Below, piece after piece: positions 1,317 through 42,548 of a DNA stretch of 64,000 nucleotides. The translations under genes and the position numbers were made by a program. The notes under the pieces are model-generated. The model did not search any database. It saw only the letters and a list, made by a program, of their open reading frames with translations, and had not been told where the DNA came from. Source of the stretch: Alphaproteobacteria bacterium (GTDB lineage Bacteria > Pseudomonadota > Alphaproteobacteria > ATCC43930 > CGMCC-115725); NCBI GenBank assembly GCA_021325525.1, contig JAJPHB010000067.1, forward strand, positions 1 through 64,000, in the 5' to 3' direction. How positions within the stretch are numbered: the first letter of the stretch is position 1; each line of letters opens with the position of its first letter.

Positions 1317-4300
1317 GTGGCCCACGCTGATTTCATCCATCTGCGCGTTCACTCGGCCTATTCGCTCTCGGCCGGGGCTATCAGAATCAAGCCGCTCGTC
1401 GGCCTCTGCAAGCAGATGAAGATGCCGGCCGTGGCGATCACCGATACGGGCAATCTGTTCGGCGCCCTCGAATTCGCGCAGGCCTGCATCGACGCCGGCG
1501 TCCAGCCGATCATCGGCTGCGAGTTCGGCTTGCGCCGCGAGGGCGGCGCCGAGCGTAGCCCGCGCCCGGGCCTGCCGCCCGATCCCGATCGAGTGGTGCT
1601 GCTGGTGCAAAGCGAGACCGGCTATCGCAACCTGTCGGCGCTCGTCAGCAAATCCTACCTGGAGACAAACGGCGGCGAGGCGCCGCAAGTGGCGGCCGCC
1701 GATCTCGCCGAGTACAGCGCAGGCCTCCTCTGCCTGACCGGAGGGCCGGGCGGCCCCATCGGGCGGCTGCTGGGCGAGGGCCAGAGCGCGGCAGCCGAAG
1801 CGATGCTGCTCCGCCTCGCCGCGCTGTTTCCGGGCCGCCTCTATGTCGAGCTGATGCGCCACGGCGTCGCCCTCGAGGACCGCATCGAGCCGCCGCTCGT
1901 CGAGCTCGCCTTGCGCCATGATCTGCCGCTCGTCGCCACGAACGATTGTTTTTTTCCCGATGCCGATTTCTACGAAGCGCATGACGCGCTCCTCTGCATC
2001 GCCGAGGGCGCCGTCGTCGGGCAGCGCAATCGCCGCCGCCTGACGCCCGACTATTGCTTCAAATCCGCAGCCGAGATGCGCGCGCTCTTCGCCGATTTGC
2101 CCGAAGCCTGCGACAACACGCTGGTCATTGCGCGCCGCTGCGCCTTCGTGCCGATGCCGCGAAAGCCCATTCTGCCGCCTTTCGCAACCGAAAGCGGGCG
2201 TTCCGAACCCGAGGAGCTGCGCGTTCAGGCAATGGCCGGACTGGAGCGGCGCCTCGCCGCCCATGTCTGGCGCCCGGAAATGAGCGACGAAGAGCGCGTC
2301 GCCGCCGCGAAGCCCTATCGCGAGCGCCTCGAATACGAGCTCGGCGTCATCGTCCAGATGGGCTTTGCCGGCTACTTCCTCATCGTCGCCGAGTTCATTC
2401 AGTGGGCGAAGGCTCAAGGCATTCCCGTCGGGCCGGGCCGCGGCTCGGGCGCCGGCTCATGCGTCGCGTGGTCGCTCACCATCACCGATCTCGATCCTCT
2501 GCGCTTCGGGCTGCTTTTCGAGCGCTTTCTCAATCCCGAGCGCGTCTCGATGCCGGATTTCGACGTCGATTTCTGCCAGGAACGGCGCGACGAGGTGATC
2601 CGGCATGTCCAGGAGAAGTACGGCCGCGACCGGGTGGCGCAGATCATCACCTTCGGCAAGCTTCAGGCGCGAGCGGTGCTGCGCGATGTCGGGCGCGTCC
2701 TCGAAATGCCTTATGGCCAGGTCGATCGCATCTGCAAGCTCGTGCCCAACAACCCCGCCAACCCCGTCACCCTGCAGCAGGCGATCGACGGCGATCCGGC
2801 GCTTCAGGCGATACGCGACGGCGACGAGACCGTGGCGCGGCTCATGACGGTAGCGCTGAAGCTCGAAGGCCTGTACCGCCATGCCTCGACCCATGCCGCC
2901 GGCGTCGTCATCGGCGACCGTCCGCTGCAGGAGCTGGTCCCGCTCTACCGCGACCCGCGCTCGGACATGCCGGTCACCCAGTTCAACATGAAGTATGTCG
3001 AGCTGGCGGGACTCGTGAAGTTCGACTTCCTCGGCCTCAAGACCCTGACGGTGCTGCAGCATGCCGTCGAGCTCATCGCCGCGCGGGGACCGCGGCTCGA
3101 CCTCTCGAACATCCCGCTCGACGACGGCCCGGCTTTCGAGCTCATGAAGCGCGGCGACACGGTTGGCGTGTTCCAGCTCGAAGGTCAGGGCATGCGCGAC
3201 ATGCTGAAGAAGCTGCTGCCCGACCGCTTCGAGGACATCATCGCCGTCGTCTCGCTCTACCGCCCCGGGCCGATGGAAAACATCCCGCGCTACATCGCGG
3301 TGAAGCATGGCAGGGAGAAGCCCGATTATCTGCACCCCTCGCTCGAGCAGATCCTCAAGGAAACGCACGGGATCATGATCTACCAGGAGCAGGTAATGCA
3401 GATCGCACAGGTGCTGTCGGGCTACACGCTCGGCGGCGCCGATCTGCTGCGCCGCGCCATGGGCAAGAAGATCAAGTCGGAGATGGAGGCGCAGCGCAAG
3501 CTCTTCGTCGACGGCGCCACAGAACGCGGCGTCGACCCTCGTGTGGCGGAGAACATCTTCGAGCAGGTGGCGAAATTCGCCGGTTACGGCTTCAACAAGA
3601 GCCACGCGGCGGCCTACGCCCTCGTCGCCTACCAGACCGCCTATCTGAAGGCGAACTATCCCGTCGAGTTCCTTGCCGCCTCGATGACTCTCGATCTCGG
3701 CAACACCGACAAGCTCAACGTCTTCCGCCAGGAACTGGATCGCCTCGGCATCAAGCTGCTGCCGCCCGACATCAACCGCTCGGGCGTCGAATTCACCGTC
3801 GAGGAGACGAAGGACGGGGCAGCCATCCGCTACGCCCTCGCGGCGGTCAAGGGAGTCGGCGCACAGGCGATGGCGGCGATCGTCGCCGAGCGCGAGGCCC
3901 ATGGCCGTTTCAAGGACCTCTTCGATTTCGCGCGCCGCGTCGACGCGAAATCATTCAACCGCCGCCAATTCGAGGGCTTGGTGAAAGCCGGCGCCTTCGA
4001 CAGCCTCAACCCCAACCGGGCCCAGACCTTCCAGGCCTGCGAGCTGCTGCTGCGCCATGCCAGCGCCGCCGCCGAGGAGCGGGAGAGCGCGCAGGTGAAC
4101 CTCTTCGGCGGTATGGATGCGGGAGCGCATCGGCCGCCGCTGCCGGTTACCGCCGATTGGCCGGCGATCGAGCGGCTTCAGAACGAATTCGATGCGATCG
4201 GGTTTTATCTTTCGGCGCATCCGCTCGACGCCTACGGCAAGAGCCTCGACCGCGTCTCTGTCGTGCGCGTCGTCGATCTCCCGGCGCGACTGGCCGCCAG

Positions 4301-24169: not shown

Positions 24170-24838
24170 ATGGATCGTTTCGCCGGAATCGCCGCGATCG
24201 GCGTACCGAAGCCGGAGACAATGGCCGATCGCGTCGCGAACGTGCTCCGCGAGGCGATCGCCAAAGGGACGCTGAGACCCGGAACCGTCCTCCGGCAAGA
24301 CGAGCTCGCCGCCCGGTTTCGTTTCAGCCGGATGCCGATTCGCGATGCCCTGCGTCAGCTGGAAGCCGAGGGGATCGTCTCGATTCACCCGACGAGGGGC
24401 GCCTTTGTCGCCGAGATGGATCGCGCCGAGATCCGCGACATCTATGCCGTCCGTGAATTGCTGGAATCGGAAGCCTTGCGCCTTTCGGTGCCCAAGCTGG
24501 ACAAGGAGCGGCTGGCCGAGGCCAAATCCATTCTCGAGCGCCTCGACCTCGAAGCCGACATCGGTCGCTGGGGGGCATTGAACAGGGCGTTCCACTTGTC
24601 GCTCTATGGGGCATGCGGAAACAACCGCCTGCTCGCGCTCATCGAGGCCCAGCACAAGACGGCCGACCGATACGTCCGTGTCATCTTGTCCAATCTCGAC
24701 TATCGCGCGCGATCGCAGGCGGAGCACAGGGAGATGCTCGACCGCTGCGCCGCCGGCGATGCCAAAGGAGCTGTGACGTCCTTGCGGAAGCACCTCCGGG
24801 ACGCAAGCCGGGCGCTCGTCCGTTCCACCATGAAATAA
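24170..24838 (+). CDS. GntR-family transcriptional regulator, FCD (FadR) subfamily
   Basis: 222 residues. An N-terminal winged helix (about 18-82) with GTLRPGTVLRQDELAARF and SRMPIRDALRQLEAEGIV matches the GntR consensus. The C-terminal all-helical FCD ligand domain (about 90-215) holds the metal/ligand-type residues in FHLSLYGACGN and EHREML. Such regulators usually bind carboxylate ligands and repress neighbours. A FAD oxidoreductase gene follows in the same direction 176 nt later, with a GTATAC-rich palindrome in front of it, so this regulator probably controls that gene. Its own start at 24170 lacks a strong ribosome site. Confidence 0.9.
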   Translation: MDRFAGIAAIGVPKPETMADRVANVLREAIAKGTLRPGTVLRQDELAARFRFSRMPIRDALRQLEAEGIVSIHPTRGAFVAEMDRAEIRDIYAVRELLESEALRLSVPKLDKERLAEAKSILERLDLEADIGRWGALNRAFHLSLYGACGNNRLLALIEAQHKTADRYVRVILSNLDYRARSQAEHREMLDRCAAGDAKGAVTSLRKHLRDASRALVRSTMK

Positions 24839-24979
24839 TTGCCCGTTCCATCCCGGATCCCCATCGAATACGAGAGTCCGCCGAGAGCATTCTTCGGCGC
24901 CGCCCGAGACTGCCCGCGGTGCCTCCGATCGGCCGTTCGATAGAGACAGGGGAGGCAAGGTCTCTTGCGCCGACTGGCA

Positions 24980-25003
24980 TTCTCGTATACGCGTATACGA
25001 GAA
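24980..25003. promoter_or_regulatory. 24-nt perfect palindrome, probable GntR operator
   Basis: The half-site TTCTCGTATACG is followed directly by its exact reverse complement, giving a perfect 24-nt palindrome with no spacer. It contains two GTATAC cores 2 nt apart. Operators of FCD-type GntR regulators often have a GTATAC-like centre. It ends at the ribosome site (AAGGAG, 25002-25007) of the oxidoreductase gene at 25015. A bound repressor would block initiation, and an RNA hairpin here would hide the ribosome site. A degenerate half-site (ATACGAGA) occurs at 24869-24876. Confidence 0.7.
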
Positions 25004-25014
25004 GGAGATCGGAG

Positions 25015-26229
25015 ATGGCGCGGATCAGCACTCAAGGGCCCATCGACGCCGTTGTCATCGGCGCTGGTATTGCCGGGTGCACCCTCGCCTATGAGCTGAC
25101 GCGGCATCGCTGTCGGGTCACCGTCCTGGAGCAGAGCTTCGTTGCGGCCGAGTCCTCGGGGCGAAATACCGGGACGCTTCTCAGCGGCCCGCAACCGGAG
25201 GTCGTCGAGCTCCTCGACGGCTCTGTCGAGGTCTATAGAGAGCTGGCGGACGGGCCCGTGCCCTTCGAGTTTGCCAAGATCGGCCACCTTCTGATTTCGG
25301 AGGACGAACAAAGTTTCGCGGCGGCGGCCGCCGTCGCCGAACGCTACAGGTCGGCGGGCGTCGGGATGGAAAAGGTTCTCGGCGCAGAGCTTACTCGCGA
25401 ATATCCGCGGCTCAAATTCAAGGTCTCCGGGGGCTATTTCGTCGAGCGCGCCTGGACGCTCGAACCGCTGGGGGCGACACATTCCTTTGCTCATGCCGCG
25501 CGCGAGGCCGGCGCCGTCATCCGGACCGGCCTGCGCGTCGCCCAGGTTTTTTCACGGAACGGCAAGGTCCAAGGTGTCCTGACCGATCAGGGAATCATTC
25601 CCGCGGATATGGTTTTCCTCGCCAATGGGCTCTGGATTTCGGACTTGCTGCGCCGGACCGTCGGCGACGGACCGCTCCCCGGCCTGCCGCTGACGGCGGG
25701 CCGCGGCTGGCTCATTCAGCTGGGCAAACTGGATTTCAGAATTCCATGGATCATCGAGGAGCTGACTTGGCCGGATCAGGAGGAATTGGGACGGCGCATG
25801 TCGCTCGATGGGCTGAGGGACGTCGCGGAGTTGCGGGATGACCGCATCGGCGTCGAAGCTATTTGCATGAACCCGATGCTGGGCGGCGATTTGCGCCTCG
25901 GCGCGACGGTTCAGCCCGCCTTTCGCGATCTTTTGCGCAATACGGAGGTCGCCAGCCGAATCGCCGCGCGGACGCTTCGCATGATCGCCGGCCTCGACGC
26001 AACGACGGTCAAGAATGTTTATCCTGGGAATCGGCCGATGCTGTCGGACGGGCTGCCCGTCGCCGGCCGCACAGCAATCGAAGGATTGTTTCTGCACGGC
26101 GGCATGGGCTCGATCGGCATGCATGCGGCGCCCGCGACCGCGCGATGGCTCGTCGATGCGGTCCTCTCCGGCGATGGCAACCCTCGCCAGAAATGGTTGG
26201 TACCGCAACGCTTTCCTGGATGGGACTGA
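25015..26229 (+). CDS. FAD-dependent amine/D-amino-acid oxidoreductase (DAO family)
   Basis: 404 residues. The N-terminal Rossmann FAD site reads VVIGAGIAGCTLAYEL with the ribose-binding Glu in VTVLEQ. The C-terminal FAD segment is GLFLHGGMGSIGMHAAPATAR, and PGNRPMLSDGLPVAGRT before it is typical of DadA/glycine-oxidase relatives. It probably oxidises a D-amino acid or secondary amine to an imine; substrate unknown. The ATG at 25015 has GGAG and AAGGAG upstream; the longer open frame is not conserved. It is controlled most likely by the GntR gene upstream through the palindrome at 24980-25003. It is distinct from the SoxB-like gene at the window start. Confidence 0.88.
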   Translation: MARISTQGPIDAVVIGAGIAGCTLAYELTRHRCRVTVLEQSFVAAESSGRNTGTLLSGPQPEVVELLDGSVEVYRELADGPVPFEFAKIGHLLISEDEQSFAAAAAVAERYRSAGVGMEKVLGAELTREYPRLKFKVSGGYFVERAWTLEPLGATHSFAHAAREAGAVIRTGLRVAQVFSRNGKVQGVLTDQGIIPADMVFLANGLWISDLLRRTVGDGPLPGLPLTAGRGWLIQLGKLDFRIPWIIEELTWPDQEELGRRMSLDGLRDVAELRDDRIGVEAICMNPMLGGDLRLGATVQPAFRDLLRNTEVASRIAARTLRMIAGLDATTVKNVYPGNRPMLSDGLPVAGRTAIEGLFLHGGMGSIGMHAAPATARWLVDAVLSGDGNPRQKWLVPQRFPGWD

Positions 26230-41722: not shown

Positions 41723-42532
41723 CTATTCGGGCAGCAGCCTCTTCAGCACGGCGCGCCCGTCCTCGAGGTCGCGCTGGACGGCGCGAACCAGCGCCTTGGG
41801 GTCACGCCGACGGATCGCCTCCAGCATGGCCGCGTGATGGCGCCCACCCTTCCAGCCCGCGTCATAAGACACCGGAAAGAGCAGGTTCATCGACGGGCCG
41901 ACCTGAAGCCACAGCGTTTCCAGAATCTGCAGCAGCGACGGCATGCCGGCCGCGCCATAGATCATGAAGTGGAAATCCTCGTTGAGGCGCAGCGCGTCCT
42001 TGGTGGCGCGCCGGCGATAGGCCTCGCCATGCGCGGTATAGAGCGCCTCCATGCGCGCGAGCTGGGCGGCCGTCATCTTGGTGCAGCCGATCTCGGCGGC
42101 GAGCCCTTCGAGATTGAGGCGGATGACGCAGAGCTCCTCATACCGGTCCCGGGTCAAGATCGGGACGATCACCGTGCGGTCCGGTCCCTGCTCGAGGACG
42201 CGCTCGGCGACGAGGCGGTTCAGCGCCTCGCGTGCCGGCGTCAGGCTGACGCCGAGCGTCGCCGCGATTTCGCGGGTCGTCAGCCTTTCGCCCGGGGAGA
42301 GGGCGCCACGGCGCAGCGCCGTGCGCAGGCTCCGATAGGCTTGGTCGCCCAAGGTCTCGGGGCGATTGACGGGCCGCAGGCGGGCTGTGAGGGCCCGCTG
42401 CGGCGGCTGCCGCTCGGCGGCCGATCCGGCCTCGATCGGCTGCGCCTCGCCTTGGATTGCCCGTCTCACTCTCGTTCGCGCCTCTGAGGCCGCCCCATCG
42501 ACCCGCCGAATTGACCGGCCAAACCGTTGCAT
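41723..42532 (-). CDS. GntR-family transcriptional regulator, FCD subfamily
   Basis: About 269 residues. A winged helix (GDQAYRSLRTALRRG, LTTREIAATLGVSLTPAREALNRL) and a helical FCD domain with LNEDFHFMIYGAAG and HHAAML as ligand-site histidines. The N-terminus before the helix-turn-helix is unusually long (about 55 residues), so the real start may be later than the ATG at 42532; an ATG at 42544 would lie inside the palindrome upstream. It diverges from the ABC transporter genes and reads into the decarboxylase gene; it probably regulates both. Confidence 0.85.
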   Translation of the reverse strand: MQRFGRSIRRVDGAASEARTRVRRAIQGEAQPIEAGSAAERQPPQRALTARLRPVNRPETLGDQAYRSLRTALRRGALSPGERLTTREIAATLGVSLTPAREALNRLVAERVLEQGPDRTVIVPILTRDRYEELCVIRLNLEGLAAEIGCTKMTAAQLARMEALYTAHGEAYRRRATKDALRLNEDFHFMIYGAAGMPSLLQILETLWLQVGPSMNLLFPVSYDAGWKGGRHHAAMLEAIRRRDPKALVRAVQRDLEDGRAVLKRLLPE

Positions 42533-42548
42533 GATATAACACATATCA
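42532..42548. promoter_or_regulatory. Inverted repeat in the divergent gntR/ABC-transporter region
   Basis: TGATAT (42532-42537), 5-nt spacer AACAC, ATATCA (42543-42548): perfect 6-bp arms in an AT-rich patch at the divergent boundary. This is a good size for a dimeric GntR operator controlling both directions. Confidence 0.55.

Follow-up and report, generated by a model that had tools for sequence, protein, structure and literature searches.

A palindrome with twin GTATAC cores as a probable operator of a GntR-FCD regulator beside a DAO-family oxidase gene

In a 64,000-nt stretch of alphaproteobacterial DNA (the window), a perfect 24-nt palindrome, TTCTCGTATACGCGTATACGAGAA, lies between the gene of a GntR-FCD transcriptional regulator and that of a DAO-family FAD-dependent oxidoreductase (the oxidase). 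From its conservation beside orthologs of the regulator we conclude that the palindrome very probably serves as operator for the FCD-type GntR protein of the upstream gene, which would block the oxidase promoter, and that the feature is in all likelihood real and functional. The length of the palindrome is suggestive at the whole-genome scale, yet inconclusive; its conservation is decisive, and it is because of its place and its conservation that we call it non-random.

The palindrome and the genes beside it

The palindrome occupies part of the 176-nt gap between the two genes, 141 nt past the stop of the regulator gene and 11 nt ahead of the oxidase ATG (25015). The features of the region are listed below.

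24170..24838, + strand: GntR-FCD transcriptional regulator, 222 aa, presumed binder (Pfam GntR 6.8e-19, FCD 3.3e-27)
24864..24873, no strand: degenerate second site TCGAATACGA (9/10 of TCGTATACGA), possible loop partner
24964..24991, + strand: putative oxidase core promoter, placed by comparing the window with Reyranella sp. CPCC 100927 (locus L032)
24980..25003, no strand: putative twin-core operator TTCTCGTATACGCGTATACGAGAA, read directly and matched by a conserved block in 13 ortholog loci
24982..24991, no strand: first (promoter-side) core element CTCGTATACG, from the alignment of the window and L032 upstream regions
24992..25001, no strand: second core element CGTATACGAG, the extra box at 8 bp, from the sequence and the ortholog comparison
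25002..25007, + strand: Shine-Dalgarno (SD) sequence AAGGAG, read from the sequence
25015..26229, + strand: DAO-family FAD-dependent oxidoreductase, 404 aa, presumed regulated gene (Pfam DAO 8.1e-52)

The sequence-only reading of this DNA had described mirrored 12-nt arms at 24980-25003 with neither mismatch nor spacer, twin GTATAC cores, and a location downstream of a GntR-FCD gene, and all of this was confirmed: the arms are 100% complementary with no spacer, and the cores lie at 24985-24990 and 24993-24998 with their centres 8 bp apart. Its placement of the palindrome directly at the SD is loose: the overlap is confined to the first two A's of AAGGAG. The same reading had judged the chance of such a palindrome to be low, which holds at the scale of the window: this is the longest perfect spacerless palindrome there, the runners-up having 9-bp arms; 64000 x 4^-12 gives about 0.004 chance palindromes per 64-kb window, and arms of at least 12 appeared in one of 60 windows simulated by a first-order Markov chain, for an overall expectation of 0.004-0.02 per 64 kb. 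Extended to a genome of comparable size, however, the simulation predicts about 0.3-1 palindromes of such length, and a single chance case genome-wide would be unsurprising.

The regulator clears the curated cut-offs of both of its domains (PF00392, 67.7 bits against 27; PF07729, 95.8 bits against 24.3) and belongs to the FCD (FadR/VanR) subfamily of the GntR superfamily, with an N-terminal winged helix and a C-terminal FCD domain. Across 12 aligned orthologs Arg54 and Arg58 of the recognition helix and Asn138 and His142 of the FCD metal site are invariant, the wing Gly77 is kept, and two further metal-site histidines (in 'EH' and 'KHL' motifs) are conserved 22 residues apart, a spacing as in Atu1419; by this alignment the protein retains the Asn/His residues of a putative FCD metal site. 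The oxidase had no match in the plasmid collection and none at E <= 1e-40 in the other genomes of the order. The window also carries a second GntR-FCD gene (41723-42544, - strand), divergent from an ABC-transporter gene; upstream of it TGATAT-GTGTT-ATATCA, a possible operator, covers the first predicted ATG, and the predicted start of that gene may therefore be too far upstream.

Conservation beside regulator orthologs

When the regulator sequence was searched against 84,980 genomes and a plasmid collection, six close orthologs (56-71% identity) were found in the genomes and further ones in the plasmids, the relatives belonging to Reyranella, Rhizobium, Agrobacterium, Mesorhizobium and Phyllobacterium. 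The block NATACTCGTATACNAG is present at all 13 intact close-ortholog loci (56-71% identity), always with its two cores 8 bp apart; in the 11 for which the distance was measured, 54-73 nt separate the start of the second core from gntR, which lies downstream. Since the Agrobacterium/Rhizobium plasmid loci include near-copies of each other, the 13 loci amount to fewer than thirteen independent observations. Five diverse loci share 92% identity over the 18-nt block, as against 29% over the flanks. The block is absent near regulator homologs of 45% identity or less (Bradyrhizobium and others), and its 15 specified bases were found in none of 384 other genomes of a class-wide sample. When 76 GntR homologs were examined for twin 6-bp cores in their upstream regions, most of the signal came from the ortholog group itself and from GC-rich noise.

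The neighbours of the site change from one relative to another. In Reyranella sp. CPCC 100927 it stands between divergent gntR and an oxidase 75% identical to that of the window; in Mesorhizobium, Rhizobium and Agrobacterium the divergent neighbour is a D-Ala-D-Ala ligase-family gene, alone or together with a C39 peptidase-like gene, and in Phyllobacterium the divergent neighbours are other genes. The site thus tracks the regulator while its neighbours change, which indicates that it is the regulator's own operator; the proposal of the sequence-only reading that the palindrome serves as a DNA operator for the adjacent GntR-FCD protein is strongly supported by this phylogenetic footprint, which follows the regulator and not the target gene. 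Of the loci found, the window alone has the operator downstream of gntR; in the relatives it is upstream. As the gntR of the window has no copy upstream of it, the autoregulation suggested by the relatives is not evident here. We also observed that loci L033, L035, L036, L080-L082, L084 and L085 carry the ligase-family gene (at about 2150-3900), mostly together with the C39 peptidase-like gene, and that it is kept beside the regulator on many Agrobacterium/Rhizobium plasmids.

Within the 4.79-Mb genome the twin site is unique: a genome search gave no second copy of the 16-nt core of the palindrome at up to two mismatches. A regulon was sought by pattern searches. The single core CTCGTATACGAG, at up to two mismatches, has 238 matches and its reversed control 205, and for that reason the search is uninformative about a regulon. 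The pattern GTATACNNGTATAC with one mismatch allowed has one other place in the genome (contig C150, position 1172 onward), where GTATACACGTCTAC (1172-1185; locus L093 of genome G000) precedes a small gene pair resembling, as judged by eye, an antitoxin and a PIN-type toxin. We take this place as unrelated; GTATACACGTCTAC is probably the operator of that pair.

Proposed repression of the oxidase promoter and other readings

The upstream regions of the window and L032, read in the oxidase direction, align through CTTGC...ATTCTCGTATACG.GTAT.C, and in this orientation CTCGTATACG is the counterpart of the full palindrome of the relatives. A -35-like CTTGCG (24964-24969) is followed after a 16-nt spacer by a -10-like TATACG (24986-24991) inside the palindrome; the Reyranella counterpart of the -35-like element is CTTGCT, with 17 nt. 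This pair fails a generic sigma-70 scan, and the -35/-10 assignment for the oxidase is weak. With TATACG as the -10, transcription of the oxidase would start at about 24997.

We infer the following scheme of binding and repression. The regulator, as a winged-helix dimer (or tetramer) of a VanR-like FCD group, would bind the 10-bp element [T/G]CGTATACG[A/C], and the second core, 8 bp off, would take up a further dimer or subunit pair for stronger binding. Since the probable -10 box falls within the first core, the bound protein would block RNA polymerase until a metabolite in the FCD domain released the repressor and allowed the oxidase to be made. The degenerate site TCGAATACGA lies about 109 bp from the first core element, and its centre is 119 and 127 bp from those of the two main cores; it is a suggestive loop partner, picked out post hoc by analogy.

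The palindrome could instead work mainly in the mRNA, as a hairpin occluding the ribosome site of the oxidase, a role that the sequence-only reading had offered beside that of operator. As RNA, a 10-bp stem with a CGCG loop is possible, and GUCUCUU at 24960 is able to pair with the SD region and extend the stem, but the computed folds are not unusually stable (z -0.84 and -1.27; 41 and 23 of 200 shuffles fold equally well) and only the AA of the ribosome site falls inside the palindrome. In the relatives, moreover, the element lies at least 50 nt from either start codon, so that the SD adjacency is not conserved, and no conserved stem including the SD was found. With the probable -10 box within the palindrome, the main oxidase transcript should also lack the left arm of the hairpin. 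The ordinary fold, the unconserved adjacency and the place of the -10 box together speak against the hairpin, which we regard as highly improbable, while read-through transcripts from gntR could fold into it.

Many families of transcription factors bind palindromes and the GntR protein is a presumed binder, so the site might belong to a different factor (for example a TetR-type protein or a global regulator) and be adjacent to the GntR gene by accident. We consider this improbable: the element travels with the GntR ortholog group despite the changes of neighbour, it is absent elsewhere in the genome, and its GT-AT-AC core fits the published FadR-subfamily consensus. A chance palindrome, or a non-regulatory repeat such as a mobile-element end or a recombination site, draws some support from the number of equally long palindromes expected per genome, but is made very unlikely, to the point of being nearly negligible, by the footprint, with a single copy in the genome and a conserved block amid diverged flanks. 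The operator of the GntR-FCD protein is the reading we retain.

Comparison with known FCD operators and significance

The operator consensus of the FadR subfamily is NyGTM-N0-1-KACNy, and its sites typically have additional, weaker half-sites at 7-12 nt from their centre (Suvorova et al. 2015, PMC4494728). By sequence, the TCGTATACGA-type core in the window and at the 13 ortholog loci fits this consensus: two nucleotides separate GT from AC, and the relatives have an ATAC box at 8 bp. The window differs from such sites in that the extra box is perfected to a second full core, and the whole 24 nt is therefore symmetric.

A parallel in core sequence is Atu1419 of Agrobacterium fabrum (VanR group of FCD GntR proteins), whose binding site ATGTATACAT is a 10-bp palindrome with a GTATAC core and overlaps with -10 boxes; as a tetramer that loops the DNA, the protein also engages a degenerate second palindrome at a distance of 109 bp (PMC7797058). 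The window shares with it the GTATAC core, the -10 overlap (here putative) and a degenerate second site at about 109 bp, and its protein has an Arg at the equivalent recognition position and a similar Asn/His3 metal-site spacing; the relation between the two proteins is distant (PDB 6z74, E 3e-11). In contrast to Atu1419, the core is flanked by CG..CG and not AT..AT, the two cores of the window are merely 8 bp apart, and the target genes differ. Another FCD protein, NanR of E. coli, has closely spaced, repeated TATA-containing boxes in its (GGTATA)3 operator, where its dimers bind cooperatively side by side, and this cooperativity requires a 32-residue N-terminal extension (PMC8012715). The NanR boxes are direct repeats whereas the cores of the window are palindromic, and the regulator of the window lacks such a long extension, since its GntR domain starts at about residue 19.

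Two further loci suggest that the twin-core architecture may recur in this regulator group with another core. At L089 an oxidase ortholog (67%) lacks the twin-GTATAC motif and has at the equivalent place, in the oxidase/gntR intergenic region (about 2750-2780) beside a divergent gntR fragment, the perfect 20-nt palindrome GGATATTGGATCCAATATCC. At L008 (2075-2094; the same as L091 3062-3081) the apparent start codon of a GntR gene with 43% identity lies at the centre of another perfect 20-nt palindrome, TTTGGATCCATGGATCCAAA, in which two GGATCC cores are spaced by 8 bp. At L089 we also note that GGATATTGGATCCAATATCC stands a few nucleotides before the apparent ATG of the gntR ortholog; the gene would then be leaderless or have its start further on. 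It is conceivable, though we think it unlikely, that 8-bp-spaced twin cores, with the GGATCC variants of L008 and L089, represent an undescribed FCD operator architecture, whose regulon alternates between a D-amino-acid-type oxidase and D-Ala-D-Ala ligase-family genes and whose ligand is related to D-amino acids; as the 8-bp spacing falls short of a helical turn, two dimers would have to dock nearly side by side or share a tetramer.

In the literature searched, no GntR operator with the sequence of the palindrome was found, and a search for a GntR regulator of a D-Ala-D-Ala ligase or a D-amino-acid oxidase returned nothing on point. The pairing of the regulator with either a DAO-type oxidase or a D-Ala-D-Ala ligase-family gene suggests that its ligand may be related to D-amino acids. 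The proposed switch is of an ordinary kind, with a conventional mechanism; what is gained is a precise, testable putative operator for an uncharacterised group of regulators in relatives of Reyranella, Rhizobium, Agrobacterium, Mesorhizobium and Phyllobacterium, which opens a route to the target genes and the ligand of the regulator.
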